From Chrysophaeum taylorii (lineage: Eukaryota; Sar; Pelagophyceae; Pelagomonadales; Pelagomonadaceae), in contig JAQMWT010000548.1 of NCBI GenBank assembly GCA_029834535.1, forward strand, positions 62,001 to 126,000: 64,000 nt of DNA, read 5' to 3'. Below are positions 1 to 21,182 of the stretch, piece by piece. Made by a program: the position numbers and the translations under genes. Each line of letters starts with the position of its first letter. Within the stretch, counting starts at the first letter, position 1. Under the pieces are notes generated by a model that saw only the letters and a program-made list of their open reading frames with translations, was not told the origin of the DNA and did not search any database.

Positions 1-979
1 CCAACGTCGGATCGCTGGACTTGCCACTAGTGCGACCTCGTCGCAGACGGCCCCGCAAACAACCGGCACGTTCTAGGAGTCGGAACTTCTGCGCCGAGGA
101 CTTCTTCCACGTGACACCATCAATCTAAGCTACCAGGCCTGGTGTTTAGGAGTTGTTACTGTGAGTTCAACTCGTCAGATGCCTGCAGACTGGTAAGCGT
201 GATCGACTCAAATTTGCAGCACACATGTTCATCTCGCGAGGTTGAACTGTGGAAAATTGGAGCTAGAGGGAGTGATCGACGCGCACGCACTTCTAAAGAC
301 TGCGCTCCTGCGGTGCGCAGCCGTCGGAGCTTCTTTGGTGCGTGTGGTCATTCGCCCAGCGTTTCAGCGCTTGTGGGGTCCGATCACGTCGTCGATGTCT
401 CGAGAAGCGTGTTTCTGCTACACACTAACTACGGGAGCGAACTGGGGCTAAGGATCTGTAGGGACGACCAATTCCTAATTTCGCGCATTGTATGCTCGCG
501 CTCGCCTCGGCCGAGCGCGACCGTTCCGAATACAATGTAGTCGACGTCCATACCATCGTGAATACTGCCCCCCCGCCGTGGGGCGTCACCCAGGCGCTTG
601 ATCCAGCGGCTCGTTCATGGTAAAGCGAAAGGTTTTTTTTCCTTCCATCTCCCGATCTATGACTCCTTGGACCGCCCCGCGATTATCCGCACTCAACTTG
701 GCTGTAGGAACTGTGATAGTTTGTGCCAGCGTGCCGACGAGCTACAGCAGGCTACACAACTCAATTACAATCAAATTAAAGAAGTAGCCCTTCATCAACC
801 ATGTGCGCCTAAAAAGCATCGCGAGCGTGCTATCTGCGCCACATTTGGCTGCGGGTGATCGAGAACCGAGTCGTTACACTGTTCTGTACTACAGCAGAAC
901 ACACTAGCGCGTGGTAGCACGCACGAAAGATTCTTCGTACGCACTCGGTCGAGCATACGGTGCAGTGCCGACGAGCGAC
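1..979. other. Non-coding leader upstream of the HORMA gene
   Basis: The first 330 bases or so continue the degenerate satellite-like sequence that ends the preceding unit. Small open frames here (for example 142-540) lack any recognisable composition or motif. From about 540 to 979 I see a C-run, a T-run near 633-640 and no convincing gene. The HORMA promoter should lie here, but I cannot point to a TATA-like element with confidence. Confidence 0.5.
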
Positions 980-2116
980 ATGGCCGAGGAGATGCTTCGA
1001 GCGTCGCGTGGCGAATCGAGACCCGAGCGGTGCACAATGGCGAGCGAGGCGCAGTCGGTTGATATTGTGACCAAGTTCATCGAGCTTACCGTCTACACGA
1101 TTCTTTACCTGCGCAAGATCATTCCCGAGGAGTGCTTCGAAACAATGGACCTTGGAGGTGGCCACGCGTGTCCGTGTCTTGAACTCAACGCAGGCGGGCA
1201 AGCTGGTGCGAATGCCCGAGTGATCCAATCGTGGATTTGTTCTGGGCTCCGGACGGCCATTGCAATGAGGTACCTCAAATCTGCCACGTTCATCATTGCG
1301 GACGACCAAGAGTGCTCTCAAGAGCAGTATACTTTTCGCCTTGCATACCCGTGCAGCGAAAAGATCCAAGTGTCGATGAGCGGACCACGCGTCACTGGAC
1401 GAGAAGTACTCCTGGACTGCGCGCCCGTGTTCAAACAACTTCGACAAATATGGCTTGATCTGACCTTGCTGACGAGCGGTCTGCCACTACCAACCGACGA
1501 AGAGCGCCTCGTTACGATGAAACTCTCGTACACAAGTATCACACCGCCTGGTTACAACCCGCCCTGCTTTCGCACGTGCGCCTCCGATGCATTTGACTTC
1601 GCCAATTCGGGCCCCGCGGCGTCAGTCGCTGTCGGAGGAGAAGGGTTGCACGGCCCCCGCCACAGCTGCAAGTTAGTGTACAAGGGACCTCAAATAAGCC
1701 TGTCGGACTCATTACGCGATGGTCAACCGAGCTCTTCCTCGAAAGACACACCACTCGCGAGCTATTGGCCTAGAGACAATAAGACGTGCAATTGGGGTGA
1801 CGGCACAGGTGCCGACGACAACAAGAACGGGAAGGACGATGACGAGGACGACGAAAAAACGCACGTCTCAGCAGGCCCGGACACCCTAGAGGTCTACGGG
1901 CAGGTGTCGGAATCAAGCTCGTCGAGAAAAAGGCCCCGCGACTTGGCTGGCAAACTGTCGTCACCGCCATGTTCAAAGCGCTTCGAGTGCTCGTATACCG
2001 ACACACAAGACGCCTATTACCATGTCGTGAGTTCGCAGGATTCACGAGTCACGACGTACAAGCGCTACACCATGTGTCGAGAGCCCGTCTCCTTCACACA
2101 ACCCGGCCTCTGCTGA
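980..2116 (+). CDS. HORMA-domain meiotic axis protein (Hop1/HORMAD type), copy A
   Basis: Intronless, 378 residues from the first ATG of the open frame. Residues about 22-225 read as a HORMA domain: the early helix with TILYLRKIIPEECF matches the Hop1/HORMAD ILYLRGIFPEDAF pattern, and the domain ends with LVTMKLSYTSITPPGYNPP, matching the family's LTMKLxYYDDVTPPDYQPP. Hop1/HORMAD proteins load on meiotic chromosome axes, promote double-strand breaks and bias repair to the homologue. The C-terminal third is low complexity: a Ser/Gly linker, an acidic block (DDDEDDE) and a basic nuclear-signal-like KRPRDL. I do not see a clear zinc finger. In this unit it is followed 2.2 kb later by shugoshin-like and RAD51-like genes. 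The protein is identical in copies A and B. Mad2 or Rev7 are less likely because the PPGYNPP end is Hop1-like. Confidence 0.9.
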   Translation: MAEEMLRASRGESRPERCTMASEAQSVDIVTKFIELTVYTILYLRKIIPEECFETMDLGGGHACPCLELNAGGQAGANARVIQSWICSGLRTAIAMRYLKSATFIIADDQECSQEQYTFRLAYPCSEKIQVSMSGPRVTGREVLLDCAPVFKQLRQIWLDLTLLTSGLPLPTDEERLVTMKLSYTSITPPGYNPPCFRTCASDAFDFANSGPAASVAVGGEGLHGPRHSCKLVYKGPQISLSDSLRDGQPSSSSKDTPLASYWPRDNKTCNWGDGTGADDNKNGKDDDEDDEKTHVSAGPDTLEVYGQVSESSSSRKRPRDLAGKLSSPPCSKRFECSYTDTQDAYYHVVSSQDSRVTTYKRYTMCREPVSFTQPGLC

Positions 2117-2947
2117 CCCTCTATCGGTGACACTGGGTTCTCATTCAATCCCTTCGAGTGGTGCGTCTCTTGTAAACTAATCTGCCCTCCTGCCCCGACA
2201 CTCCCCAACCACATCTGGCGGCTCAGACAACGCGCCTCTACCGGCGTCTCTCCTTACAGAAACGCCAACGGCCTACGTCTCTCGGCCGCCGGGTCCCTGG
2301 CGGCGCCCGGACGGTTTGGCCAACGCCTTGCCGTCTCCCTTAAACCCACTCACCCCACTCTCATTTCCGCTCGACGCTCTCACCCCCGCCAGTCTAAGCT
2401 GCTTTGATCAGCGCACGTTCGCTAACCTTTGAGTTTACTCCCAACCATATCCATGCCCTGCGTGATCTGTCCCGTAGCTTTAAGCGCTCGAACTTTAGCA
2501 AGAATAATTTTTCGAACCGAGGCTTGCAGCCAATGTCATGCTTTGTTGCACGACATCGTACACCACGGGACTGGCTAGCAGGGGTGCTTTGCGCGTGATC
2601 CGAAGACGAAATCTCGGCTCGAACGCTGAACTCATATACGTCCCCCACAGTCGCAATCAACCTATTTTGAGCACGCACCCTCCGTTTCATAACGATTCTT
2701 CGCGGTTTACGGTCGACTGCGAGCTCTTCGGTTATACTTAAATGGCTCGAGCGATCTGGTGCGTATAGGGTGCGGCGACACTTCGCAGGGGTAATCCAGC
2801 AGTTGCCTGGCTCGGAGTTGCACGTCAAACTTGGACGTTTGGCACTCGCTGCGCTACCCAGCTCTCGATGTTCGGATTAGGATTTTGTTTGCCCTCGAGA
2901 TTCTTCGGTGGCACCGAGGATTGTACTTTACAATAGATTGGTGAACT

Positions 2948-3302
2948 GCATTGAGCTTTGCCTGTAGAGATGAAATATCAAGTCATCGGAACTATATTCT
3001 AGATAGCGAGTCGCTACCAGTCTTGCTGGAATCAGCTGGTTCGAGATGGCCGGTCAAAACTTTAATTCTAAGCGACCCCCAGCACTCACAGCAGACGAAC
3101 TTTTTCCGACATCCCTCTGTACACATTCTACAATCTTCGATCCTATACTCACACGAGCTTTGACGATGAGTGACGCGACGTTGTGACGCGAGAGTCTCTT
3201 GCGCAGAATCAACTTCCCTGCAGCAAGCAAGGCTTCTGACACAACTCGCAAACACCCCTCCATGGCAACGCGCATGGCTTTGAACGTTTGGCGACGAGCC
3301 AT
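2948..3302 (-). CDS. Candidate small helical protein, possibly spliced (weak)
   Basis: A minus-strand ATG at 3302 opens a helical frame with a GCLRVVSEALLAAGKLIL stretch followed by RLSRHNVASLI, loosely reminiscent of a histone-fold helix-loop-helix. Two strong donor-like GTGAGT sites follow, with acceptors giving introns of about 36 and 54 bp, the size normal here, and an open frame to a stop near 2948. Against it: copy B lacks one base in the C-run inside the first exon, which shifts the frame, so at least one copy would be broken. I do not recognise a family. It may be chance. Confidence 0.2.
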
Positions 3303-3630
3303 AGAGTGTCAACAGCGCGGATGAGTCGTCGAGTCGACGTCAAAGAGGGCCACCGTTCGTTTCTAACTTACATAAATGTCAATTGACAGTTGTTCGGTGG
3401 AGCACGTTGCGGCTTCATGCAGAGGCGCGCTCAGACATCATTCGAATCGAGTCATTCCCGCGAGTGGCGCATGGATTGGTGGCCTGTGGGTGTCAGGAGC
3501 CGAGTAGAAATACGTGCGCGGATTAGAGGTGCGGCGTTTCAAGAGCCCGACTATCACTCGCAAGTTGCGCGCCCGCCTTGTGTTCCGAACTGATGGATTT
3601 ACACAATGTTTTGACTAAATTAGCTTCGGA

Positions 3631-4110
3631 ATGAGCAAAGCGAGTGGTGCACGCGCGCGTCGGCTGCTACGGAGCATGAACTTCGACCCTACGTCGTTCG
3701 AAGACTACGGGAAGCTTGGAGACGGAGCTGGATCGTCACGTGCGCAAGATAATGACATCCGCGGTGCGTGCTTCATTCGAGAAGATCAACAATGCAAGCA
3801 AAGCGAACGCGAGGCCAAGAACGTCACTAAGAGTGCCAAATCAGGCAAGTCAAAACGCAAGCTCACCGCGCCTCTGGGTCAGGCTAAAAAGAATACCGGC
3901 CCCAACGAGCCGAAATGACCATGCGCGGGATTGAACGCGAGACTCGAACAGACCGCGCGGTCACTCGCCCAACAAGGTACGCGAGATTGTCCGTCGGATT
4001 GCTGCCGGTGGAATATTTGACGACCTTACACCTCCGCCATTCCCGCCTTTTTGATTGTCCTGTAGACCTGTTCTCGATGCCTCGACGACCTCCGGCATCC
4101 CGCAGAAGGG
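3631..4110 (+). pseudogene. Possible decayed coiled-coil gene between HORMA and shugoshin-like genes (weak)
   Basis: From the ATG at 3631 a short basic protein of 95 residues can be read, but protein-like sequence switches frame: the second frame (from 3716) reads METELDRHVRKIMTSAV, and near 3930-4060 two other frames give ARLEQTARSLAQQ and REIVRRIAAGGIFDDL. Charged, heptad-like composition suggests one coiled-coil protein broken over three frames, or an intron pattern I cannot solve. Both full units carry the same arrangement. No family assigned. Confidence 0.25.
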
Positions 4111-4286
4111 TAGCTGATTATTTTACTCGGCTAGCCACCTCTTGGTCGAAGCTAATAAGACGGTGTCAGAAGGGCGCCTTAGTAGTACTTTCCGATAACT
4201 CTCTCAGCTCGAACGACGGTCGCAAGGCCTTCGGTCCAGCTTCCTCGAGGGTGTGAACGGGCGCGCCACGATTCCCGAACGCCACG

Positions 4287-4658
4287 TCAGGGTTGCCTCA
4301 TCTTGACTTTGAGCGACGGCTCCGCGTACGACACGACGCGCGTGCTTCTGGCTGGTCTATGAAGGGCTGCGGCGGATAGTGGATGCGTCGGATGCTCGTT
4401 GAAAGAGCTGGCTCTTTCGGAAGCGCTGATAGATTCGGATTGGATTGTCTTGTTCGAGCGCTCGCTAGTTGTGCGCACCTTGAGAAGCTCTCTTGTCAGG
4501 GCAGAAATCTGGCGTTCGTATCGGATTCTTTCTAACTTGAGACGCGCGACTTCTGCGGCAAGCTCCTTGTTGTTCGACTGGAGCGAAGCTAGTCGAACTT
4601 CATTCACGGTGGTGGAGGGCGCCGTGAGGTCACGTCGTCGTCGTCGCCGAACGATCAT
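4287..4658 (-). CDS. Shugoshin-like protein, copy A
   Basis: Single-exon, 123 residues. After a basic N-terminus, residues about 22-65 form a heptad-rich coiled coil (ASLQSNNKELAAEVARLKLE and onward), the position of the shugoshin N-terminal dimerisation/PP2A-binding coil. The C-terminus ends with RSTRVVSYAEPSLKVKMRQ, which fits the shugoshin C-terminal basic motif (R..R..V.Y..PSL..K.R). Shugoshins protect centromeric cohesin from separase through PP2A and bind phosphorylated H2A via the basic box. The protein is shorter than most shugoshins, with only about 35 residues between coil and basic box. It is divergent from the recombinase gene with 227 bp between starts. Copies A and B differ by one residue (N/K near position 19) and a few silent changes. 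Confidence 0.75.
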   Translation of the reverse strand: MIVRRRRRRDLTAPSTTVNEVRLASLQSNNKELAAEVARLKLERIRYERQISALTRELLKVRTTSERSNKTIQSESISASERASSFNEHPTHPLSAAALHRPARSTRVVSYAEPSLKVKMRQP

Positions 4659-4885
4659 TGGCTTCAGTCCAATGTGTACCAGACACGTGATGTTCTACTA
4701 CTGTTGTCAAGCAGGATCACCCAATATTATCACCATCCGGCGTGGAAAAATACATCCACAAAATTACGTGGATGTACGCAGTTAGACGTTACAATTCGTA
4801 ACTCCCAGAATTGGTACTACCAAGGCGACATCAACGGCCAAACATCACAACTGTAATAAAGCTGGTTGCTCATTAATCAACGACG
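4659..4885. promoter_or_regulatory. Divergent promoter between shugoshin-like and RAD51-like genes, with inverted repeat
   Basis: This 227-bp gap separates the two divergent start codons. It contains a perfect 9-bp inverted repeat at 4751-4776 (TACATCCAC, 8-nt spacer, GTGGATGTA), repeated at 13737-13762 in unit B. A palindrome midway in a divergent promoter is a natural candidate for a dimeric regulator site shared by both genes. That is inference; no known site is recognised. Confidence 0.45.
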
Positions 4886-6248
4886 ATGGACGTCAACGCC
4901 GGAACCCTGTCTGAGACGGAGACTGCGCTCGCACGCGCCGAACCAGTTCAGCAAGCTGATGCCAGCAACCACTTGGTCAACGAAGAAGACGTGCTCGAAG
5001 ACGAGGACGACATCGACACGCCCGTCACGTTCCTGCACGTCGAGGACCTCGCCGCCCACGGTGCACACGCAGGAGAGATTTCCAAGCTGCGAAAGGTGCG
5101 CTCTTGTCTTCTTGCTGACTGCTTGCCCGACAGAGAGCGCGCAGCGCGGACTGACGACGGTCGGGCTCGTCGCAAGCGCGTCGATGAGAGAACTGATCGA
5201 GGTGCCAGGGCTTTCGACCGAGCGCGCCGACTTCTTGCGCAAGAAAGCCAAACTAGTCGACGGCAAGTCCGGCGTCGTCTTCGCCTCGGGTCTGGACCTC
5301 GTGCGGTCGATGAAGACCAAGATCACGACCGGGAGCGCCGCCCTCGACGCACTCATCGGTGAGATTGGACGCGAGGCTGGACGTGTCAAAATCCAACGAG
5401 CTGTTACAGGTGGCGGCGTTGAGACGAAGACTATCACCGAGCTGTACGGCGACAGCGCAACTGGCAAGACCCAGCTCTGTCACGCGCTGTGCGTGCGGAC
5501 TCAGTTCGCTCGAGACCAAGGCGGCGCGGAGGGCTGCGCGCTGTACATCGACACAGATCAGACGTTCCGTCCAGACCGAATCCAGCAGATTGCGGAGGCC
5601 GTCGGTTTCGGTGAGGATCGCCGTGACATGCTGTTTCGTCTGAGAGTGCCACCGCGCAGACCCACAGCAAATTCTGGGGAATATCGTCGTGATCAAAGCC
5701 ACCAGCTTCGATCATCAATGCGAAATCGCCACCGCGGCGACTCGCGTGCTTGCAGACCCACCGAGTGGCGAGTTTCGTCTCATCATCGTAGACAATCTCA
5801 TGACCCACCTGCGCGCCGAATATGCTGGCCGCGGAGAGCTCGCGGCACGACAGCAAGCCCTAAACAGTCACCTCCGTTGGCTCAAACAGCTCGCCGACGA
5901 GTTCGACTGCGCCGTCGTGGTCACGAATCAGGTCTCCACAGTCCCCGAGGCCTTCGCTATGGGCGGGGCCACCGTCAAGCCCTGCGGCGGGCCTGTCCTG
6001 GCTCATAACGCCCCGATGCGAATCTGGTTGCGCAAAGGGCGCGCACAGCAAAAAAAAGCCACGCTTGAACATTCGGCCTTCATGCCAAAAGGTAGGACTC
6101 CTCTTGTGTCTATTGCTGCGCCGACCGAGACAGTTAGAAGCGACTGTCGTCGCGTCTGTAACTTTTTGGAAGCATGAGCGCGCGCGCAGGCGACTGCCTC
6201 TTCTCCATCGTAGCCGCAGGGATCGTCGACTCGATTGAAGGAGCTTAA
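4886..6248 (+). CDS. RAD51/DMC1/RadA-family recombinase, copy A (five exons)
   Basis: Modelled as exons 4886-5095, 5136-5358, 5410-5610, 5660-6091 and 6190-6248 (introns 40, 51, 49 and 98 bp), giving 374 residues. An acidic N-terminus precedes a helix-hairpin-helix region (GLTTVGLVASASMRELIEV). The core has Walker A GDSATGKTQ, YIDTDQTFRPDRIQQIAEAV, DPQQILGNIVV, Walker B FRLIIVDNL, GRGELAARQQ, VTNQV and GGPVLAHNAP, and ends CLFSIVAAGIVD like the family's FAIT..GI.D terminus. Joining exons restores conserved motifs at every junction, which supports the splice sites; only the first acceptor (5134-5136) is uncertain. The family forms filaments on single-stranded DNA for strand exchange. Walker A is unusual: GDSATGKTQ instead of GEFRTGKTQ. 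I cannot decide between RAD51 and DMC1. Copies A and B differ by one residue (T7A). Confidence 0.9.
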
Positions 6249-6899
6249 GCGCCCGTCCCTCGCTGGTGAAAGAGCAGAATGAAATTTGACGTGCTGGTGC
6301 TTGTTAACAGCGTGGTTCGTCGTGCTGAATGTCCCGAAGAACTCGTTCTCGCTCTCGAGTCCAAAATTGTCCGCCTGTCTGGCTCGCCGATGTCTAACTT
6401 AACGCGACGATTTCATCGCGAATGAGTTCACTCCACATCGATCAAGACCGCACAAACCCTTGAAGACGCGCAGAAGAAACCGTCGCGGCCCACCCTCGCA
6501 CGACTGCGCCACACTGTTTCGAACACACGAGACCACTCGTCGGAGCGACGACCGCCTCTATCTATCGTTATAAAAAATGGTCCACCACTGCGCGAAGAAT
6601 AAAGGCAACGAGACGGCGCGCAGATGCACAGCTAAGTAGGTCTCAGTGATTCATCAGTTGTGGCTGCTAGCACATGTGGGAGCATATCGAGCATAGATGA
6701 GACCTTAGGTGTCGATGGTTTGAATAAAACACTCGAGGGATAGCAGCACTCACAATAAGCATACGTTGTTGCGTGTCGGTTCGCGTGCCACAAACGTAGT
6801 GGACTCAGTTCAAGACGACCAGGCTTTGGCCGACTTTGGAGCGTGCAATACATCCGTTGGTTATCGATATACTCGTTCAGATGTGGTCTATGATGCATA
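6249..6899. other. Region downstream of the recombinase gene
   Basis: No gene recognised. A minus-strand frame at 6632-6898 has no motif and overlaps the start of the satellite-like region. The sequence TATAAAAAATGG near 6568 is A/T-rich but has no identifiable gene behind it. Confidence 0.4.
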
Positions 6900-9330
6900 T
6901 CAGGCCTTGGACTGATGGATTTCGCACTAGTTAACCCCGCAGTTTATGATCCCTGCGCGCGGAGCACGCACGCCATGCGTATGAACTTTGGGCTGCGGAT
7001 TCTGCGCGTGATGGCATCGCTCCAAGCTGCTAGGCGATGCGTCGATAAGGTGCGCGAAGCCACTCAGAATTCTGAAGACTTGGACCGTTGCGAATACATG
7101 TCATCGTCCGAAACCTTCGCGCGCGCACAGAAACCGCGGGAGTTGAAGCTTGGAGCTTTTAGCAGCGCGTGCATCTTTAGATTGAGCGCCAAGAACCCGC
7201 GGTCGTTGGACTTGCTTTGATGTGTGTTCACGTTCGAGGTCTGCCCGCATTGTCAGCCCAAATCGTATCTGTAGAATCGTGCGCAAAGTCGAGAGTAGCA
7301 GATTGTGGCGACGACGTATGAGTGAATCTCTACTCATTCCATTTCGCTCCTAATGCCGTCGCCCTGATGCTCGAAACGATTCCGACCCACCGGGTTGGAC
7401 TTTAGCTTGTCAGATTGTCTGGCGTCTTCGCGCGCTGCAACTTGTAGAAGTCTCAGTTTGGTGGTTCGAGACATCAACCCGAGGGTAGAAAACTCTGCAA
7501 CACGTACCGTAATTAGGGTGTAGGCTCTCAATTGTCTTACCACGTAATATTAGGCTGTGTTCGGTTATCTAGATCCAAGCTGCTTGGATCGCTGGATTTG
7601 CCACTAGTCTGCGGCGCGATTGATTACGGTTACGCGCGCGCGCGCACACTATGCACGCACGTGACCGAAATGCTAGGCTGCGGACTCGGGACGCGTGACA
7701 CCAACACTCCTAGGTACTAGGAGAGGCGTTTAGGGGTCGCTTAGGTGTGGTCAGCCGTTCGCATACTTTTGAAGTCTATTCCGAATAATTGATGGAATAT
7801 GGTTTGACACCCGTGTCGCGAGCGCGCGAACTGCTCGACTTGGAGCTTTGGGTAATTAAGCGCACATACTGACTTCTAGAGTTCGTGTTCTAGCGAGTCG
7901 CAATCGTTAAAGTTGCGTTGACATGCATGGTCATTCAGTCTCGGACGTCTCTGTGCGCTCTCAGCTCCGAACGTTTTTAGTGTCGGGCACGCAGCGTCGA
8001 GCATATCAGGTTGTGGCGACAACGTGTGGGTAATTCACTAGTCTTTTCCCTACGCCTGGAGTGAGTTCGCCGTACTGTTCGAAACGAGTCCGACCCGGCT
8101 GCGAACACAATCGTTCGACTCTGCGTGTCGGTTTGTCGGATGTTTGTTCGCAAGTGTGTTTGTGCGAAAACTGTAGTGGTCTCAGTGAGAGACGTCGGTC
8201 CGTGCGCATTCGCCTCTACAGCGTCGAGCCTATCTATAACTTATCCTTTCACTCTTTTAGATGAGTTCGGCCATGCAGATCCAACCTTGGATCGCTGGGT
8301 TTGATACTAATCCGGGCTCCATTGATGATTTCTGCCGCAGGATGGCTGCGCGCGCGGACTCCACGTGACCAAAGTTCTATGCTGTGGACTCCCGAGACGT
8401 GACAGCAACACTCCAAGCTACTACTGAGATGCATTCATGCGGGGCTCGCTTACCATGTGCTCAGCCCTTGACATGGAACCGAGGAATTCCGCGCTATTGA
8501 CTCTAAGCGTTATTATCCACGCGCAAGCCGCGGAAGTTGGAGCTCGAGGTCCTAAACGGCGCGCGCACTAGTCTACAGCGTGTGATGTTGCGATGCACAG
8601 CTGTAAGCCCCGAGCTGGCGTTCGCAATCATTCGGGCCCCAGGTCTTCGCTGGATTTGCCTTTTTGAGTCCACCGCATCCAAGGACGGGTCTGAACGGTT
8701 GTACGCACGCGCGCGCGCAGACTCCAGGAGTCAGATCTTCTGGACCGAGGACTCCGTATTTGTGACACCATCAACCCCAACTACTTGGCGGTGCGTTTCG
8801 GAGTTGGTTCGATGTGTCGAGCTGTTTACATGTCTCGGGGCTCGTGCGCCCGATCAACTGGTAAAGTGTTCGTTCGCGAGTGGTAACGGTCACGATGCGA
8901 GAGGTCAGCCGAGCGTAGAACTTCGACAGTGTGCATTCTATCTGTGGGCTATTAAGATACTGGTTTACACGGTTCGTTCATTCAAATCCAACGTCGGATC
9001 GCTGGACTTGCCACTAGTGCGACCTCGTCGCAGACGGCCCCGCAAACAACCGGCACGTTCTAGGAGTCGGAACTTCTGCGCCGAGGACTTCTTCCACGTG
9101 ACACCATCAATCTAAGCTACCAGGCCTGGTGTTTAGGAGTTGCTACTGTGAGTTCAACTCGTCAGATGCCTGCAGACTGGTAAGCGTGATCGACTCAAAT
9201 TTGCAGCACACATGTTCATCTCGCGAGGTTGAACTGTGGAAAATTGGAGCTAGAGGGAGTGATCGACGCGCACGCACTTCTAAAGACTGCGCTCCTGCGG
9301 TGCGCAACCGTCGGAGCTTCTTTGGTGCGT
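6900..9330. repeat. Degenerate satellite-like repeats, period about 0.7 kb (sub-period about 0.35 kb)
   Basis: Variants of one sequence recur: the anchor GGATCGCTGGATTTGCC at about 7588, 8289 and 8997, a half-step version near 8650, and a weaker one near 6913. A second anchor (TTGGAGCT) recurs at about 7147, 7845, 8535 and 9247, and TGTGGCGACRACGTRTG at about 7302 and 8012. Between anchors the monomers share a CG-alternating tract and GTGACACCA-like words but are heavily diverged. This nested array straddles the junction between 9-kb units, so it is older than the unit amplification. Open frames here (8537-9115 for instance) look accidental. Confidence 0.75.
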
Positions 9331-9966
9331 GTGGTCATTCGCCCAGCGTTTCAGCGCTTGTGGGGTCCGATCACGTCGTCGATGTCTCGAGAAGCGTGTT
9401 TCTGTTACACACTAACTACGGGAGCGAACTGGGGCTAAGGATCTGTAGGGACGACCTATTCCTAATTTCGCGCATTCTATGCTCGCGCTCGCCTCAGCCG
9501 AGCGCGACCGTTCCGAATACAATGTAGTCGACGTCCATACCACCGTGAATACTGCCCCCCCGCCGTGGGGCGTCACCCAGGCGCTTGATCCAGCGGCTCG
9601 TTCATGGTAAAGCGAAAGGTTTTTTTTCCTTCCATCTCCCGATCTATGACTCCTTGGACCGCCCCGCGATTATCCGCACTCAACTTGGCTGTAGGAACTG
9701 TGATAGTTTGTGCCAGCGTGCCGACGAGCTACAGCAGGCTACACAACTCAATTACAATCAAATTGAAGAAGTAGCCCTTCATCAACCATGTGCGCCTAAA
9801 AAGCATCGCGAGCGTGCTATCTGCGCCACATTTGGCTGCGGGTGATCGAGAACCGAGTCGATACACTGTTCTGTACTACAGCAGAACACACTAGCGCGTG
9901 GTAGCACGCACGAAAGATTCTTCGTACGCACTCGGTCGAGCATACGGTGCAGTGCCGACGAGCGAC

Positions 9967-11103
9967 ATGGCCGAGGAGATGCTTCGAGCGTCGCGTGGCG
10001 AATCGAGACCCGAGCGGTGCACAATGGCGAGCGAGGCGCAGTCGGTTGATATTGTGACCAAGTTCATCGAGCTTACCGTCTACACGATTCTTTACCTGCG
10101 CAAGATCATTCCCGAGGAGTGCTTCGAAACAATGGACCTTGGAGGTGGCCACGCGTGTCCGTGTCTTGAACTCAACGCAGGCGGGCAAGCTGGTGCGAAT
10201 GCCCGAGTGATCCAATCGTGGATTTGTTCTGGGCTCCGGACGGCCATTGCAATGAGGTACCTCAAATCTGCCACGTTCATCATTGCGGACGACCAAGAGT
10301 GCTCTCAAGAGCAGTATACTTTTCGCCTTGCATACCCGTGCAGCGAAAAGATCCAAGTGTCGATGAGCGGACCACGCGTCACTGGACGAGAAGTACTCCT
10401 GGACTGCGCGCCCGTGTTCAAACAACTTCGACAAATATGGCTTGATCTGACCTTGCTGACGAGCGGTCTGCCACTACCAACCGACGAAGAGCGCCTCGTT
10501 ACGATGAAACTCTCGTACACAAGTATCACACCGCCTGGTTACAACCCGCCCTGCTTTCGCACGTGCGCCTCCGATGCATTTGACTTCGCCAATTCGGGCC
10601 CCGCGGCGTCAGTCGCTGTCGGAGGAGAAGGGTTGCACGGCCCCCGCCACAGCTGCAAGTTAGTGTACAAGGGACCTCAAATAAGCCTGTCGGACTCATT
10701 ACGCGATGGTCAACCGAGCTCTTCCTCGAAAGACACACCACTCGCGAGCTATTGGCCTAGAGACAATAAGACGTGCAATTGGGGTGACGGCACAGGTGCC
10801 GACGACAACAAGAACGGGAAGGACGATGACGAGGACGACGAAAAAACGCACGTCTCAGCAGGCCCGGACACCCTAGAGGTCTACGGGCAGGTGTCGGAAT
10901 CAAGCTCGTCGAGAAAAAGGCCCCGCGACTTGGCTGGCAAACTGTCGTCACCGCCATGTTCAAAGCGCTTCGAGTGCTCGTATACCGACACACAAGACGC
11001 CTATTACCATGTCGTGAGTTCGCAGGATTCACGAGTCACGACGTACAAGCGCTACACCATGTGTCGAGAGCCCGTCTCCTTCACACAACCCGGCCTCTGC
11101 TGA
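9967..11103 (+). CDS. HORMA-domain meiotic axis protein (Hop1/HORMAD type), copy B
   Basis: Same 378-residue protein as the copy at 980-2116, with identical predicted sequence, HORMA core (TILYLRKIIPEECF at the start, TPPGYNPP at the end), acidic block and basic tail. Upstream sequence is also nearly identical, so both copies are likely to be expressed alike unless silenced as repeats. Confidence 0.9.
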   Translation: MAEEMLRASRGESRPERCTMASEAQSVDIVTKFIELTVYTILYLRKIIPEECFETMDLGGGHACPCLELNAGGQAGANARVIQSWICSGLRTAIAMRYLKSATFIIADDQECSQEQYTFRLAYPCSEKIQVSMSGPRVTGREVLLDCAPVFKQLRQIWLDLTLLTSGLPLPTDEERLVTMKLSYTSITPPGYNPPCFRTCASDAFDFANSGPAASVAVGGEGLHGPRHSCKLVYKGPQISLSDSLRDGQPSSSSKDTPLASYWPRDNKTCNWGDGTGADDNKNGKDDDEDDEKTHVSAGPDTLEVYGQVSESSSSRKRPRDLAGKLSSPPCSKRFECSYTDTQDAYYHVVSSQDSRVTTYKRYTMCREPVSFTQPGLC

Positions 11104-13272
11104 CCCTCTATCGGTGACACTGGGTTCTCATTCAATCCCTTCGAGTGGTGCGTCTCTTGTAAACTAATCTGCCCTCCTGCCCCGACACTCCCCAACCACA
11201 TCTGGCGGCTCAGACAACGCGCCTCTACCGGCGTCTCTCCTTACAGAAACGCCAACGGCCTACGTCTCTCGGCCGCCGGGTCCCTGGCGGCGCCCGGACG
11301 GTTTGGCTAACGCCTTGCCGTCTCCCTTACACCCACTCACCCCACTCTCATTTCCGCTCGACGCTCTCACCCCCGCCAGTCTAAGCTGCTTTGATCAGCG
11401 CACGTTCGCTAACCTTTGAGTTTACTCCCAACCATATCCATGCCCTGCGTGATCTGTCCCGTAGCTTTAAGCGCTCGAACTTTAGCAAGAATAATTTTTC
11501 GAACCGAGGCTTGCAGCCAATGTCATGCTTTGTTGCACGACATCGTACACCACGGGACTGGCTAGCAGGGGTGCTTTGCGCGTGATCCGAAGACGAAATC
11601 TCGGCTCGAACGCTGAACTCATATACGTCCCCCACAGTCGCAATCAACCTATTTTGAGCACGCACCCTCCGTTTCATAACGATTCTTCGCGGTTTACGGT
11701 CGACTGCGAGCTCTTCGGTTATACTTAAATGGCTCGAGCGATCTGGTGCGTATAGGGTGCGGCGACACTTCGCAGGGGTAATCCAGCAGTTGCCTGGCTC
11801 GGAGTTGCACGTCAAACTTGGACGTTTGGCACTCGCTGCGCTACCCAGCTCTCGATGTTCGGATTAGGATTTTGTTTGCCCTCGAGATTCTTCGGTGGCA
11901 CCGAGGATTGTACTTTACAATAGATTGGTGAACTGCATTGCGCTTTGCCTGTAGAGATGAAATATCAAGTCATCGGAACTATATTCTAGATAGCGAGTCG
12001 CTACCAGTCTTGCTGGAATCAGCTGGTTCGAGATGGCCGGTCAAAACTTTAATTCTAAGCGACCCCCAGCACTCACAGCAGACGAACTTTTTCCGACATC
12101 CCTCTGTACACATTCTACAATCTTCGATCCTATACTCACACGAGCTTTGACGATGAGTGACGCGACGTTGTGACGCGAGAGTCTCTTGCGCAGAATCAAC
12201 TTCCCTGCAGCAAGCAAGGCTTCTGACACAACTCGCAAACACCCTCCATGGCAACGCGCATGGCTTTGAACGTTTGGCGACGAGCCATAGAGTGTCAACA
12301 GCGCGGATGAGTCGTCGAGTCGACGTCAAAGAGGGCCACCGTTCGTTTCTAACTTACATAAATGTCAATTGACAGTTGTTCGGTGGAGCACGTTGCGGCT
12401 TCATGCAGAGGCGCGCTCAGACATCATTCGAATCGAGTCATTCCCGCGAGTGGCGCATGGATTGGTGGCCTGTGGGTGTCAGGAGCCGAGTAGAAATACG
12501 TGCGCGGATTAGAGGTGCGGCGTTTCAAGAGCCCGACTATCACTCGCAAGTTGCGCGCCCGCCTTGTGTTCCGAACTGATGGATTTACACAATGTTTTGA
12601 CTAAATTAGCTTCGGAATGAGCAAAGCGAGTGGTGCACGCGCGCGTCGGCTGCTACGGAGCATGAACTTCGACCCTACGTCGTTCGAAGACTACGGGAAG
12701 CTTGGAGACGGAGCTGGATCGTCACGTGCGCAAGATAATGACATCCGCGGTGCGTGCTTCATTCGAGAAGATCAACAATGCAAGCAAAGCGAACGCGAGG
12801 CCAAGAACGTCACTAAGAGTGCCAAATCAGGCAAGTCAAAACGCAAGCTCACCGCGCCTCTGGGTCAGGCTAAAAAGAATACCGGCCCCAACGAGCCGAA
12901 ATGACCATGCGCGGGATTGAACGCGAGACTCGAACAGACCGCGCGGTCACTCGCCCAACAAGGTACGCGAGATTGTCCGTCGGATTGCTGCCGGTAGAAT
13001 ATTTGACGACCTTACACCTCCGCCATTCCCGCCTTTTTGATTGTCCTGTAGACCTGTTCTCGATGCCTCGACGACCTCCGGCATCCCGCAGAAGGGTAGC
13101 TGATTATTTTACTCGGCTAGCCACCTCTTGGTCGAAGCTAATAAGACGGTGTCAGAAGGGCGCCTTAGTAGTACTTTCCGATAACTCTCTCAGCTCGAAC
13201 GACGGTCGCAAGGCCTTCGGTCCAGCTTCCTCGAGGGTGTGAACGGGCGCGCCACGATTCCCGAACGCCACG

Positions 13273-13644
13273 TCAGGGTTGCCTCATCTTGACTTTGAGC
13301 GACGGCTCCGCGTACGACACGACGCGCGTGCTTCTGGCTGGTCTATGAAGGGCTGCGGCGGATAGTGGATGCGTCGGATGCTCGTTGAAAGAGCTGGCTC
13401 TTTCGGAAGCGCTGATAGATTCGGATTGGATTGTCTTGTTCGAGCGCTCGCTAGTTGTGCGCACCTTGAGAAGCTCTCTTGTCAGTGCAGAAATCTGGCG
13501 TTCGTATCGGATTCTTTCTAACTTGAGACGCGCGACTTCTGCGGCAAGCTCCTTGTTGTTCGACTGGAGCGAAGCTAGCCGAACTTCCTTCACGGTGGTG
13601 GAGGGCGCCGTGAGGTCACGTCGTCGTCGTCGCCGAACGATCAT
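13273..13644 (-). CDS. Shugoshin-like protein, copy B
   Basis: 123 residues, the same N-terminal coiled coil and C-terminal VSYAEPSLKVKMRQ basic motif as copy A. It differs by Lys instead of Asn near residue 19 and by silent changes, including one in the codon for Ala of ISALT and one for Arg of VRLAS. An open frame kept with mostly silent differences argues for function. Confidence 0.75.
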   Translation of the reverse strand: MIVRRRRRRDLTAPSTTVKEVRLASLQSNNKELAAEVARLKLERIRYERQISALTRELLKVRTTSERSNKTIQSESISASERASSFNEHPTHPLSAAALHRPARSTRVVSYAEPSLKVKMRQP

Positions 13645-13871
13645 TGGCTTCAGTCCAATGTGTACCAGACACGTGATGTTCTACTACTGTTGTCAAGCAG
13701 GATCACCCAATATTATCACCATCCGGCGTGGAAATATACATCCACAAAATTACGTGGATGTACGCAGTTAGACGTTACAATTCGTAACTCCCAGAATTGG
13801 TACTACCAAGGCGACATCAACGGCCAAACATCACAACTGTAATAAAGCTGGTTGCTCATTAATCAACGACG
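13645..13871. promoter_or_regulatory. Divergent promoter, copy B, inverted repeat conserved
   Basis: Same 227-bp divergent gap. The 9-bp inverted repeat is retained at 13737-13762. One A/T change just upstream of it separates the copies. Confidence 0.4.
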
Positions 13872-15234
13872 ATGGACGTCAACGCCGGAGCCCTGTCTGA
13901 GACGGAGACTGCGCTCGCACGCGCCGAACCAGTTCAGCAAGCTGATGCCAGCAACCACTTGGTCAACGAAGAAGACGTGCTCGAAGACGAGGACGACATC
14001 GACACGCCCGTCACGTTCCTGCACGTCGAGGACCTCGCCGCCCACGGTGCACACGCAGGAGAGATTTCCAAGCTGCGAAAGGTGCGCTCTTGTCTTCTTG
14101 CTGACTGCTTGCCCGACAGAGAGCGCGCAGCGCGGACTGACGACGGTCGGGCTCGTCGCAAGCGCGTCGATGAGAGAACTGATCGAGGTGCCAGGGCTTT
14201 CGACCGAGCGCGCCGACTTCTTGCGCAAGAAAGCCAAACTAGTCGACGGCAAGTCCGGCGTCGTCTTCGCCTCGGGTCTGGACCTCGTGCGGTCGATGAA
14301 GACCAAGATCACGACCGGGAGCGCCGCCCTCGACGCACTCATCGGTGAGATTGGACGCGAGGCTGGACGTGTCAAAATCCAACGAGCTGTTACAGGTGGC
14401 GGCGTTGAGACGAAGACTATCACCGAGCTGTACGGCGACAGCGCAACTGGCAAGACCCAGCTCTGTCACGCGCTGTGCGTGCGGACTCAGTTCGCTCGAG
14501 ACCAAGGCGGCGCGGAGGGCTGCGCGCTGTACATCGACACAGATCAGACGTTCCGTCCAGACCGAATCCAGCAGATTGCGGAGGCCGTCGGTTTCGGTGA
14601 GGATCGCCGTGACATGCTGTTTCGTCTGAGAGTGCCACCGCGCAGACCCACAGCAAATTCTGGGGAATATCGTCGTGATCAAAGCCACCAGCTTCGATCA
14701 TCAATGCGAAATCGCCACCGCGGCGACTCGCGTGCTTGCAGACCCACCGAGTGGCGAGTTTCGTCTCATCATCGTAGACAATCTCATGACCCACCTGCGC
14801 GCCGAATATGCTGGCCGCGGAGAGCTCGCGGCACGACAGCAAGCCCTAAACAGTCACCTCCGTTGGCTCAAACAGCTCGCCGACGAGTTCGACTGCGCCG
14901 TCGTGGTCACGAATCAGGTCTCCACAGTCCCCGAGGCCTTCGCTATGGGCGGGGCCACCGTCAAGCCCTGCGGCGGGCCTGTCCTGGCTCATAACGCCCC
15001 GATGCGAATCTGGTTGCGCAAAGGGCGCGCACAGCAAAAAAAAGCCACGCTTGAACATTCGGCCTTCATGCCAAAAGGTAGGACTCCTCTTGTGTCTATT
15101 GCTGCGCCGACCGAGACAGTTAGAAGCGACTGTCGTCGCGTCTGTAACTTTTTGGAAGCATGAGCGCGCGCGCAGGCGACTGCCTCTTCTCCATCGTAGC
15201 CGCAGGGATCGTCGACTCGATTGAAGGAGCTTAA
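13872..15234 (+). CDS. RAD51/DMC1/RadA-family recombinase, copy B (five exons)
   Basis: Exons 13872-14081, 14122-14344, 14396-14596, 14646-15077 and 15176-15234 by offset from copy A; all splice signals are preserved. The 374-residue product has the same Walker A (GDSATGKTQ), Walker B and terminal GIVDS motif. The only residue change seen is Ala for Thr at position 7, in the poorly conserved N-terminus. Confidence 0.9.
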
Positions 15235-15889
15235 GCGCCCGTCCCTCGCTGGTGAAAGAGCAGAATGAAATTTGACGTGCTGGTGCTTGTTAACAGCGTG
15301 GTTCGTCGTGCTGAATGTCCCGAAGAACTCGTTCTCGCTCTCGAGTCCAAAATTGTCCGCCTGTCTGGCTCGCCGATGTCTAACTTAACGCGACGATTTC
15401 ATCGCGAATGAGTTCACTCCACATCGATCAAGACCGCACAAACCCTTGAAGACGCGCAGAAGAAACCGTCGCGGCCCACCCTCGCACGACTGCGCCACAC
15501 TGTTTCGAACACACGAGACCACTCGTCGGAGCGACGACCGCCTCTATCTATCGTTATAAAAAATGGTCCACCACTGCGCGAAGAATAAAGGCAACGAGAC
15601 GGCGCGCAGATGCACAGCTAAGTAGGTCTCAGTGATTCATCAGTTGTGGCTGCTAGCACATGTGGGAGCATATCGAGCATAGATGAGACCTTAGGTGTCG
15701 ATGGTTTGAATAAAACACTCGAGGGATAGCAGCACTCACAATAAGCATACGTTGTTGCGTGTCGGTTCGCGTGCCACAAACGTAGTGGACTCAGTTCAAG
15801 ACGACCAGGCTTTGGCCGACTTTGGAGCGTGCAATACATCCGTTGGTTATCGATATACTCGTTCAGATGTGGTCTATGATGCATATCAG

Positions 15890-18320
15890 GCCTTGGACTG
15901 ATGGATTTCGCACTAGTTAACCCCGCAGTTTATGATCCCTGCGCGCGGGAGCACGCACGCCATGCGTATGAACTTTGGGCTGCGGATTCTGCGCGTGATG
16001 GCATCGCTCCAAGCTGCTAGGCGATGCGTCGATAAGGTGCGCGAAGCCACTCAGAATTCTGAAGACTTGGACCGTTGCGAATACATGTCATCGTCCGAAA
16101 CCTTCGCGCGCGCACAGAAACCGCGGGAGTTGAAGCTTGGAGCTTTTAGCAGCGCGTGCATCTTTAGATTGAGCGCCAAGAACCCGCGGTCGTTGGACTT
16201 GCTTTGATGTGTGTTCACGTTCGAGGTCTGCCCGCATTGTCAGCCCAAATCGTATCTGTAGAATCGTGCGCAAAGTCGAGAGTAGCAGATTGTGGCGACG
16301 ACGTATGAGTGAATCTCTACTCATTCCATTTCGCTCCTAATGCCGTCGCCCTGATGCTCGAAACGATTCCGACCCACCGGGTTGGACTTTAGCTTGTCAG
16401 ATTGTCTGGCGTCTTCGCGCGCTGCAACTTGTAGAAGTCTCAGTTTGGTGGTTCGAGACATCAACCCGAGGGTAGAAAACTCTGCAACACGTACCGTAAT
16501 TAGGGTGTAGGCTCTCAATTGTCTTACCACGTAATATTAGGCTGTGTTCGGTTATCTAGATCCAAGCTGCTTGGATCGCTGGATTTGCCACTAGTCTGCG
16601 GCGCGATTGATTACGGTTACGCGCGCGCGCGCGCACACTATGCACGCACGTGACCGAAATGCTAGGCTGCGGACTCGGGACGCGTGACACCAACACTCCT
16701 AGGTACTAGGAGAGGCGTTTAGGGGTCGCTTAGGTGTGGTCAGCCGTTCGCATACTTTTGAAGTCTATTCCGAATAATTGATGGAATATGGTTTGACACC
16801 CGTGTCGCGAGCGCGCGAACTGCTCGACTTGGAGCTTTGGGTAATTAAGCGCACATACTGACTTCTAGAGTTCGTGTTCTAGCGAGTCGCAATCGTTAAA
16901 GTTGCGTTGACATGCATGGTCATTCAGTCTCGGACGTCTCTGTGCGCTCTCAGCTCCGAACGTTTTTAGTGTCGGGCACGCAGCGTCGAGCATATCAGGT
17001 TGTGGCGACAACGTGTGGGTAATTCACTAGTCTTTTCCCTACGCCTGGAGTGAGTTCGCCGTACTGTTCGAAACGAGTCCGACCCGGCTGCGAACACAAT
17101 CGTTCGACTCTGCGTGTCGGTTTGTCGGATGTTTGTTCGCAAGTGTGTTTGTGCGAAAACTGTAGTGGTCTCAGTGAGAGACGTCGGTCCGTGCGCATTC
17201 GCCTCTACAGCGTCGAGCCTATCTATAACTTATCCTTTCATTTTTTAGATGAGTTCGGCCATGCAGATCCAACCTTGGATCGCTGGGTTTGATACTAATC
17301 CGGGCTCCATTGATGATTTCTGCCGCAGGATGGCTGCGCGCGCGGACTCCACGTGACCAAAGTTCTATGCTGTGGACTCCCGAGACGTGACAGCAACACT
17401 CCAAGCTACTACTGAGATGCATTCATGCGGGGCTCGCTTACCATGTGCTCAGCCCTTGACATGGAACCGAGGAATTCCGCGCTATTGACTCTAAGCGTTA
17501 TTATCCACGCGCAAGCCGCGGAAGTTGGAGCTCGAGGTCCTAAACGGCGCGCGCACTAGTCTACAGCGTGTGATGTTGCGATGCACAGCTGTAAGCCCCG
17601 AGCTGGCGTTCGCAATCATTCGGGCCCCAGGTCTTCGCTGGATTTGCCTTTTTGAGTCCACCGCATCCAAGGACGGGTCTGAACGGTTGTACGCACGCGC
17701 GCGCGCAGACTCCAGGAGTCAGATCTTCTGGACCGAGGACTCCGTATTTGTGACACCATCAACCCCAACTACTTGGCGGTGCGTTTCGGAGTTGGTTCGA
17801 TGTGTCGAGCTGTTTACATGTCTCGGGGCTCGTGCGCCCGATCAACTGGTAAAGTGTTCGTTCGCGAGTGGTAACGGTCACGATGCGAGAGGTCAGCCGA
17901 GCGTAGAACTTCGACAGTGTGCATTCTATCTGTGGGCTATTAAGATACTGGTTTACACGGTTCGTTCATTCAAATCCAACGTCGGATCGCTGGACTTGCC
18001 ACTAGTGCGACCTCGTCGCAGACGGCCCCGCAAACAACCGGCACGTTCTAGGAGTCGGAACTTCTGCGCCGAGGACTTCTTCCACGTGACACCATCAATC
18101 TAAGCTACCAGGCCTGGTGTTTAGGAGTTGCTACTGTGAGTTCAACTCGTCAGATGCCTGCAGACTGGTAAGCGTGATCGACTCAAATTTGCAGCACACA
18201 TGTTCATCTCGCGAGGTTGAACTGTGGAAAATTGGAGCTAGAGGGAGTGATCGACGCGCACGCACTTCTAAAGACTGCGCTCCTGCGGTGCGCAACCGTC
18301 GGAGCTTCTTTGGTGCGTGT
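15890..18320. repeat. Degenerate satellite-like repeats, copy in unit B running into unit C
   Basis: Same nested 0.35/0.7-kb degenerate monomers as at 6900-9330, spanning the B/C unit junction. The CG dinucleotide run near 16622 is 2 bp longer than in unit A, and there is a one-base insertion near 15949. Confidence 0.7.
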
Positions 18321-19085
18321 GGTCATTCGCCCAGCGTTTCAGCGCTTGTGGGGTCCGATCACGTCGTCGATGTCTCGAGAAGCGTGTTTCTGCTACACAC
18401 TAACTACGGGAGCGAACTGGGGCTAAGGATCTGTAGGGACGACCAATTCCTAATTTCGCGCATTGTATGCTCGCGCTCGCCTCGGCCGAGCGCGACCGTT
18501 CCGAATACAATGTAGTCGACGTCCATACCATCGTGAATACTGCCCCCCCGCCGTGGGGCGTCACCCAGGCGCTTGATCCAGCGGCTCGTTCATGGTAAAG
18601 CGAAAGGTTTTTTTTCCTTCCATCTCCCGATCTATGACTCCTTGGACCGCCCCGCGATTATCCGCACTCAACTTGGCTGTAGGAACTGTGATAGTTTGTG
18701 CCAGCGTGCCGACGAGCTACAGCAGGCTACACAACTCAATTACAATCAAATTGAAGAAGTAGCCCTTCATCAACCATGTGCGCCTAAAAAGCATCGCGAG
18801 CGTGCTATCTGCGCCACATTTGGCTGCGGGTGATCGAGAACCGAGTCGATACACTGTTCTGTACTACAGCAGAACACACTATCGCGCGGTAGCACGCACG
18901 AAAGATTCTTCGTACGCACTCGGTCGAGCATACGGTGCAGTGCCGACGAGCGACATGGCCGAGGAGATGCTTCGAGCGTCGCGTGGCGAATCGAGACCCG
19001 AGCGGTGCACGATGGCGAGCGAGGCGCTGTCGGTTGATATTGTGACCAAGTTCATCGAGCTTACCGTCTACACGATTCTTTGCCT
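17976..19085. repeat. Truncated tandem unit C, right end of the array
   Basis: Follows the unit consensus for about 1.1 kb and departs from it between 19081 and 19087. Its last 200 bases carry more substitutions against A and B than the A-B pair shows (for example near 18884, 19011 and 19028), as expected for an edge copy less well homogenised. The break lies inside the HORMA gene and abuts retrotransposon sequence. Confidence 0.9.
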
Positions 19086-19215
19086 GCTTGGGATGCAATC
19101 CGGAGGGATATGTTTCTACACCTGTGTAAGACGTTTACAGGAAAAGTTGGAGACAGCGACGCGCGCAACGGCTTCTGCCACGCTGAACCGCACCCGACGC
19201 AACGAATCGGGTTGA
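18955..19215 (+). pseudogene. 5' fragment of the HORMA gene, array edge
   Basis: Retains the start codon and about 42 residues (through VYTIL) of the HORMA protein, with Gln replaced by Leu in the SEAQ segment. After about 19083 the frame runs into unrelated retrotransposon-side sequence and stops at 19213-19215. No HORMA core remains. Confidence 0.85.
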
Positions 19216-21182
19216 TTCGCAGCTGCAGCTTAGATTCCATCACCCCTTTTTCAAGCGTGCAACTCGGCATTCGCAGCGTTCACGCAGCATCCTCGGCCGC
19301 CGCGCTTCGCTTGCTCCTTACTCCTCTGCGAGTTGCTCGTCGTGCCGTTTCCATGGCGGTGGTACAGGCAAATAACGCTGCATCTGCTCGATGTGTGACG
19401 GGCGGAATGCCGGGTGCGAGTCGCTTGGTGGCGCGTCGCGATATTGGGAGATTATCGGCTTTCTCAAGAGCGGTTTGTCCAAGGTTAGATAGTCACGTCA
19501 GACGATCATGCAAAAGGCAGATGGTGCGCGCTGTTCAACACCTCAGGGGCATGGCGAAGTGTTCCGTGTACACCCTGCGAAACTATGCAGCCGACAACCT
19601 TGTTTTGACGCAGGAGTCATTAAGGATATAGCACTGCGGCCAATCGGTGATGAAATTGTTGTTGTACCGTCAGATGACGAGATAAGTCGCGCTGTACGGC
19701 AACTTAGTCTTTCAGCTACTGGAGCATCAGGCGTTCGTACGGAGATATAGCGGACGCTCGCTGCTCGAAAGAGCACGTTAAGGACCCTCAGAACTAAAGT
19801 GCATGATTTCTGTTCGTCCAAGAAAAAACAACCGGAAGAATGGGATATCGGCCTTCTTTGTATTTTGCCGAAGAAAGGTGACCTTTCGCTGCCAGGTTCT
19901 TATCGCGGCGTCATGATGTTCGAGGTCACGGAAAAGATTGTCTCCAACATCATACGCGTTCGTCTCGGTGTCATATCCGCTGAGCTAGAACACGAATCGC
20001 AGTGCGGCTTTCGGCCGGAACGGGGGACTGCCGACGCAGCCTTCAGCCTGAAGATGGCATTGAAGAAGCGTTGTGAGGATGGCATGGAAACGTGGGTTTT
20101 ATCCATTGATTTCGTAAGGGCGTTCGACCGGGTCCCGCGGGAACTACCATGGCAAGTGCTATCGAAGTTCGGCGTTCCAAAGAAACTCGTACGCCTCATT
20201 ATAGCGCTCCACAATACATAAAAGCTGTTCTCCGTCTCCGGCGCTGCCGCTTCGATGGACTCACTCATCGGCGTTAAGCAGGGTTGTGTCATAGGTCTGA
20301 TTCTTTTCGTTCTATACATGGCGGCTTTGACCATCTCGTGGTGTCGACGCGAAGGTCGGGAACCAGTATGCGTTTTCAAGACGAAGCAAGACGAAGTACT
20401 CACTGGACGTCGCTACAACGCAAACGCGTCATCGAGCGAAGTTGTACTCGAAGAGGCAGCGTGTGCAGATGAAGTGGCGTTTCCGTTTCCCGATCAACGT
20501 GCTGTGAACGAGGAGATGGCCCGTCTCATCAGGCACATTGCCAGATTTAGTATGGAAATCCATGTGGGTGACCGCCAGTCAGGGAAAAAGTCGAAATCCG
20601 AGATACTGTTTGTTGCCAAGCCAGGCATTTTCTTCAAGGACCCGGAAACCTGCGATGGTGCCGACCTCTCCGACATAGACGTGACGGTTATTCATATCCT
20701 CGTGGTGGCGACGTTCAAATACCTGGGCTCGGTACTCTCTCGCAACTGTAGTGACTCTGAAAATGTTGACTCTCGTCTGAAGAAGGCGGCAGCGGCTTTC
20801 AGTGCGCTCCGTCACCAAGTTTTCGCCTTGAGACACGTTTCTGCTCGAGAAAAGCGAATTGTCTACTTCGGTCTCATCCTCCGGTGTGGAATTATGGTGC
20901 CCGATAGAGTTGTCTACAATCGCCTACGATACTTTCACGCATCAAAACATCAACCCTCCTCTGGTGCCCTGGCCTGGAGACTATCGATACATACATCTCT
21001 CGCGACAACTACTCTAGGCAGGCCATGTTGCCCGGATGTCTTGGAATCGCCTCATTCGAAAGGTGCTCTCCTCCTGGTGCGCTTCCAAACGTCCACAGTT
21101 AACTTACAAGCCGGTTTCTCAACAAGGCACTCCACAAATTCCACGAACTAACGAAGACCTTGTACTAACTAACTAACTAACT
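19086..21182 (+). mobile_element. Decayed non-LTR retrotransposon (LINE), reverse-transcriptase part
   Basis: Frames on the + strand read as the RT half of a LINE: a pre-RT segment (19508-19749), LPKKGDLSLPGSYRGVM, CGFRPERGTADAAFSL and FVRAFDRVPRE (19799-20221), then GVKQGCVIGLILF, a corrupted catalytic box CADEVAF where YADD is expected, and a thumb-like region to about 21150. In-frame stops at 19749 and 20219 and a frame change near 21000 show it is dead. No endonuclease domain is recognisable; sequence from 19086 to 19500 is of unclear origin. The 3' end is a short CTAA tail shared with the next repeat. Clade not determined. Confidence 0.8.

Follow-up and report, generated by a model that had tools for sequence, protein, structure and literature searches.

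Proteins of the HORMA, shugoshin and RAD51/DMC1 families have roles in chromosome segregation in other organisms, and to our knowledge the genes for Hop1, shugoshin and DMC1-type proteins are single-copy and lie scattered over the genome in the organisms in which they are known. Among the pelagophytes, SPO11, HOP2, MND1, DMC1 and RAD51 were reported in Pelagomonas calceolata, low-GC regions of its genome were read as centromeres, and pelagophyte meiosis was argued from gene content and genome structure; the accessible portion of that paper describes no cluster or tandem array of the meiosis genes (PMC9481584). The published genome of Chrysophaeum taylorii NIES-1699 comprises 71 Mb in 702 contigs built from Illumina, Nanopore and PacBio reads, with a eukaryote BUSCO value of 81.5% in the text and 81.2% in the table, and a term search of the accessible portion of the paper gave no mention of meiosis, sex, ploidy or tandem (PMC10366177). 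At the level of titles and abstract openings, the papers listed in literature searches gave no description of a meiosis gene cluster or linkage like the one presented here.

The assembly used in this study, from the marine pelagophyte C. taylorii, holds 70.8 Mb in 697 contigs. The window, which is the whole stretch of 64,000 bases that was analysed, corresponds to bases 62001-126000 of contig C548 (222,282 bases). It contains most of a tandem array (array A), and a second array (array B) lies on contig C639. The repeated block of about 6-12 kb carries what profile searches identify as the alga's only detectable Hop1-type HORMA and shugoshin genes, together with a divergent recombinase gene and the predicted open reading frames X and Y.

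Extent and layout of array A

Direct repeats at a spacing of 8,986-8,989 bp run through window positions 1-19087, and with 7 kb of upstream contig included the left edge of the array falls 1,862 bp before the window start (Table 1). Each unit contains a Hop1-type HORMA gene, ORF Y, a shugoshin gene and a RAD51/DMC1-family recombinase gene, and the array is 99.5% identical to itself across 11,966 aligned bases. The linkage of three genes in a head-to-tail repeat, proposed in the first-pass annotation, is thus borne out. The same annotation spoke of amplification; its extent is modest, with two full units in C548 and two in C639; in array A, the third HORMA copy is truncated at position 19087. 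The right end of the array therefore falls within a HORMA gene, so the right side has probably been lost or rearranged.

It could be argued that a single cassette was written several times during assembly. Older, error-prone long reads were among those used, according to the accessible part of the genome paper (PMC10366177), and C639 ends within its repeat, where an alignment of the last copy with the preceding one shows a gap of some 500 bases as well as scattered, noisy single-base differences near the contig end. Against such an artefact, the alignment of copies 1 and 2 of array A, about 8,987 bases long, has 24 columns with differences. Non-array sequence flanks this array at both ends and its right end is inside HORMA, so that even the smallest possible layout would require a complete cassette and a further repeat of 3 kb. 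The second array, being 20% diverged, cannot be an assembly product of the first. We consider an artefact highly improbable.

The GC content is 0.53-0.58 in the array part of the window (1-22000) and in a second low-GC stretch (50001-60000), and 0.61-0.72 in the gene-rich part between them (22001-50000). A centromere reading of the array A region was dropped because the low-GC stretch around the array is about 28 kb long (C548 read from base 55001). The unit includes a dispersed repeat of about 190 bp; its copies are mostly 80-94% identical, several lie close together on contigs such as C159, C330 and C508, and none is on C639 among the matches listed. To the right of the array, an open reading frame at 20255-21151 has no Pfam support and bears what we take to be a LINE-like reverse transcriptase motif. 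An element of 316-362 bp is found at window positions 21164-21525, 58822-59183 and 62657-62972, in both orientations and with 95.6-96.8% identity, and also at C639:6457-6725.

Table 1. Features of the two arrays, in window positions unless a contig is named.
Feature	Position	Strand	Remarks
Array A	C548:60138-81087 (window <1-19087)		period ~8,988 bp, 2.33 units, 20,950 bp
HORMA-domain gene (Hop1/HORMAD type), copy 1	980-2116	+	378 aa, single open frame
HORMA-domain gene, copy 2	9967-11103	+	repeat of copy 1
HORMA-domain gene, third copy, cut	18955-19087	+	end is the repeat end; start by offset from copy 1
Dispersed ~190-bp repeat in array A unit	2253-2444		copies on many contigs
ORF Y, copy 1	3631-3918	+	95 aa; conserved in the C639 array
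ORF Y, copy 2	12617-12904	+	by offset
Shugoshin gene, copy 1	4287-4658	-	123 aa, C-terminal SGO motif
Shugoshin gene, copy 2	13273-13644	-	repeat of copy 1
Intergenic stretch, shugoshin/recombinase	4659-4885		227 bp, genes divergent
RAD51/DMC1-family recombinase gene, copy 1	4886-6248	+	371 aa, five exons
Recombinase copy 1, exons	4886-5095, 5145-5358, 5410-5610, 5660-6091, 6190-6248	+	GT-AG splicing
Recombinase gene, copy 2	13872-15234	+	end by offset
Array B	C639 base 8749 to contig end		12,329-bp unit, at least 2.4 units; C639 has 38,346 bases

The encoded proteins and their relatives in the genome

The three families, at first named from motifs, were recovered in profile searches. The HORMA protein matches Pfam HORMA with an E-value of 2.7e-27 (96.1 bits, cut-off 24), the shugoshin protein matches Shugoshin_C with 1.1e-9 (38.3 bits, cut-off 23.3), and the recombinase matches Rad51 in two pieces (5.9e-26 and 3.6e-26). 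Among solved structures, the closest to the HORMA protein is HORMAD1 (E 6.2e-7), followed by the HIM-3 type. A profile built from five HORMA rows gave 5.5e-8 for HORMAD1 and 2.5e-4 to 3e-4 for three HORMA/HIM-3 entries, and the top MAD2B and MAD2A entries reached 0.017 and 0.2. Judged from these comparisons, the array protein is nearer to the meiotic HORMADs than to MAD2 or REV7. Its C-terminal tail is conserved among homologs and may hold a closure motif; an AlphaFold2 model from five sequences only had a mean pLDDT of 36.3, too low for the model to be of use. A viral origin of the gene was also considered and rejected, since none of the 60 viral-contig stretches that fit the HORMA peptide pattern encodes a relative.

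The genome-wide profile searches were intron-blind and were run on an incomplete assembly. Within this scope, Pfam HORMA gave seven matches (7 of 7 candidates scored), five of them in the arrays, and the other two, on C348 and C54, are MAD2 (2.9e-61) and REV7 (1.6e-31 to MAD2B). All four Shugoshin_C matches (7 of 7 candidates scored) lie in the arrays, so that these searches of the incomplete assembly brought up neither a Hop1 nor a shugoshin outside them. Rad51 gave 12 matches (13 of 13 candidates scored), eight of which are the two pieces of the four array genes. A canonical RAD51 lies outside the arrays on C498, so the check for single-copy relatives elsewhere, suggested together with the cassette idea, speaks in favour of that idea, with a separate RAD51 and no further Hop1 or shugoshin found; C36, C309 and C149 carry weaker members of the Rad51 family. 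MND1 has one match in the assembly and TBPIP (HOP2-type) has two rather than one (L056 on C581 and L057 on C78); the presence of these genes supports the meiosis cluster reading given below. The sole TP6A_N match (L055, C52:109257) is an open frame that we take to be of the Top6A/SPO11-3 type, so no meiotic SPO11 was recovered in this search.

The recombinase gene is interrupted by four GT-AG introns of 49, 51, 49 and 98 nt, and its spliced product of 371 aa is 100% identical to the NCBI protein CTAYLR_004732. It was rejected as a pseudogene: the in-frame TGA falls in a 49-nt intron. The earlier description of intact frames accordingly holds for the recombinase after splicing, but not in the sense of one open frame. 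GDSATGKT in this protein is presumably a Walker A-like motif.

Assignment of the recombinase to one of the two eukaryotic types meets with conflicting scores. Compared with solved structures, the best match is yeast Dmc1 (262 bits), followed by yeast Rad51 (246 bits), whereas of the human chains RAD51 (232 bits) scores above DMC1 (217 bits). With the DMC1 equivalog TIGR02238 of NCBIfam it reaches 295 bits, below the cut-off of 447.7 (Balamuthia DMC1 as control, 546.8 bits), and with the RAD51 equivalog TIGR02239 it reaches 285.4 bits, below the cut-off of 478.05, which is passed by the C498 gene (495.0 bits) and by Micromonas RAD51 (526.3 bits). The RadA model PRK04301 is passed with 299.2 bits (cut-off 259), as it is by the RAD51 and DMC1 controls. 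The residues Q244, P274 and G275 (human numbering) are given as DMC1 loop residues in the accessible part of the source (PMC7809202). At these positions the recombinase has Q, P and E, a match at two of three, and the Q and P are also present in RadA and in some RAD51 rows.

A tree of 29 rows was built from 22 proteins chosen among 120 matches listed of 1,556 (the close relatives P0008 and P0010 omitted), the recombinases of both arrays, RAD51 from C498 and four PDB stretches. The recombinase, its array B copy and five further proteins form a clade of seven rows (100/100) on a long stem, which includes a 'DMC1-like' protein of Pelagophyceae sp. CCMP2097. When the tree is viewed from RadA, the 16 RAD51 and DMC1 rows, those without an assigned name being classed as RAD51 or RadA by tree position, unite (97/89) with the recombinase outside, and its grouping with human and yeast DMC1 was not recovered in this tree. 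In AU tests of constrained trees, neither a placement with DMC1 (p 0.151) nor one with RAD51 (p 0.162) was rejected. Because both equivalog cut-offs were failed and the tree was undecided between DMC1 and RAD51, we label the protein RAD51/DMC1-type, and the first-pass wording, 'RAD51/DMC1-like', proved apt. On these profile and tree results it is a divergent pelagophyte recombinase of the RAD51/DMC1 type and no clean DMC1.

The shugoshin and recombinase genes point away from each other across 227 bp in array A and 235 bp in array B, and it is possible that this interval serves as a shared promoter. Among 6- to 8-mers with conservation between arrays A and B, none was common to at least three of the four upstream regions, a count made without a shuffled control, so co-regulation stands without motif support. 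ORF Y has no Pfam match. The part with ORF X is found once in C548, to the left of array A, and within every unit of C639. An HMG-box reading of ORF X, made by eye, was given up for want of Pfam support (one unrelated match below the cut-off).

Array B and divergence between the arrays

In array B the HORMA, shugoshin and recombinase genes have the order and orientation of array A; two units are full, and the array continues off the contig end. Its unit contains a part of 3.7 kb with ORF X that is absent from the array A unit. The gene blocks of the two arrays are 79-82% identical and other matched blocks about 70-76% (39 of 1,670 candidates scored). Since the repeat borders are unlike, one block appears to have been duplicated in tandem separately at each locus.

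By comparing arrays A and B (NG86, codon bootstrap with 1,000 resamples), a dN/dS of 0.077 (95% 0.04-0.13) was obtained for the recombinase, 0.262 (0.18-0.39) for HORMA, 0.331 (0.16-0.65) for shugoshin, 0.300 (0.15-0.58) for ORF Y and 0.444 (0.32-0.63) for ORF X. In each of the five genes, a ratio of 1 or above occurred in no more than 0.001 of the resamples. Within HORMA, the ratio is lower over the first 210 aligned codons (0.12) than over those that follow (0.41). HORMA, shugoshin and recombinase are therefore under purifying selection between the arrays. The coding status of ORF X is the least sure of the five, because an overlapping frame on the opposite strand has a similar ratio (0.40).

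Among 19 dispersed-repeat loci compared, two contig pairs, C6/C268 and C388/C343, match over 3.2 kb (loci L036/L037, 99.5%, and L030/L031, 99.1%) and are probably haplotigs left in the assembly. Such putative alleles are 0.5-1% apart and the arrays about 20%, which sets arrays A and B apart from ordinary alleles and leaves either paralogous loci or haplotypes of great age. The second of these options leads to a sex or mating-type locus, in which the arrays would be versions of a single non-recombining region that diverged long ago and are present together in a diploid heterozygous strain. A similar dS in HORMA, shugoshin and recombinase (0.25-0.31) suggests a single split, the GC content is below that of the gene-rich neighbourhood, retroelement sequence adjoins array B, and the haplotig-like pairs indicate that both haplotypes may be partly assembled. 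On the other hand, the divergence is far from that of the putative alleles, the flanks have in common just the ORF X part and dispersed elements (in the parts compared), and no sex-determining gene was recognised. We therefore regard a sex locus as unlikely.

To the left of array B, C639:19-3678 has two open frames in which domains of the RNase H, integrase zinc-binding and integrase core families were recognised, along with a reverse transcriptase match below threshold, and we take it to be a Ty3/gypsy-like element. A nearby telomere was considered and dropped: doubled TTAGGG or TTTAGGG was not found on the + strand of C639, and on the reverse strand single repeats were counted six times for CCCTAA and zero times for CCCTAAA. 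The retroelement, the tandem copies and the two loci would suit a selfish cassette that gains transmission through recombination or cohesion, as would the action of its member genes on chromosome segregation in other organisms. However, no mobility domain was found in the unit ORFs scanned against Pfam, the genes are under purifying selection, the HORMA-shugoshin linkage appears old, and the sole Hop1 and shugoshin found look like needed host genes. A selfish cassette is very improbable on this evidence.

A relative gives an indication of the age of the linkage. Three HORMA homologs were found among 5,675 candidates (44-48% identity) and exactly one shugoshin homolog, P0124, among 63 candidates with E up to 1 (45-47% identity; SGO motif 28.0 bits). 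P0124 and the nearest HORMA homolog, P0001, share the source lgn, each is on a contig of 38,114 bases, and from the equal contig sizes they probably lie on one contig. The HORMA-shugoshin linkage, in a relative whose proteins are about 47% identical, is then likely to be older than the duplications. It also bears on a rival reading in which a low-GC stretch with mobile elements underwent a commonplace segmental duplication and happened to contain the three meiotic genes, whose linkage would have no functional meaning. Such a duplication would be in line with the failure to find a common promoter motif and with the neighbouring proteins, of which seven of nine scanned had Pfam matches (methyltransferase, BNR, RINGv, phosphomannose isomerase, acyl-CoA dehydrogenase, dynamin and CNNM) and none was meiotic. 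It is decidedly unlikely given the probable linkage in the relative and the duplication of one block at two loci with unlike borders.

A proposed pelagophyte meiosis gene cluster and known systems

The idea of a meiosis cassette holds by families, linkage and repetition. We hypothesize, with moderate confidence, that pelagophytes have in this block a meiosis gene cluster specific to their lineage, which in C. taylorii was duplicated at two loci. The three proteins would act jointly in meiosis, in axis building and partner choice, in strand exchange and in the protection of centromeric cohesion, and co-expression may keep their genes together, with one divergent promoter of 227 bp perhaps driving shugoshin and recombinase. 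Each locus would later have been tandem-duplicated separately, unequal crossing over or gene conversion could keep the arrays homogeneous, and the gene dose would be raised by the duplication. To a further reading we give little weight, namely that the block is a meiotic 'supergene' of pelagophytes whose two diverged array versions are alternative forms (gametologs, or driving and resident) that set chromosome pairing and segregation. If the cluster reading is true, it would be a rare eukaryotic case of meiosis genes that are linked, duplicated at two loci and probably still together in a relative, a handle on sex in pelagophytes, and a natural case in which three meiotic factors have their dose raised together.

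With respect to DMC1 and RAD51, the recombinase is alike in that the N-terminal and the ATPase parts are both present. The shugoshin resembles SGO1/MEI-S332 in its C-terminal SGO motif, and its N-terminal part looks coil-like by eye, with weak coiled-coil family matches that are all below the cut-off; it differs in having merely 123 aa, and yeast and animal shugoshins are longer. The HORMA protein, like Hop1 and HORMAD1, has a long tail after its HORMA domain (residues 26-208), but its similarity to HORMAD1 is weak, and its gene lies in a tandem cluster.
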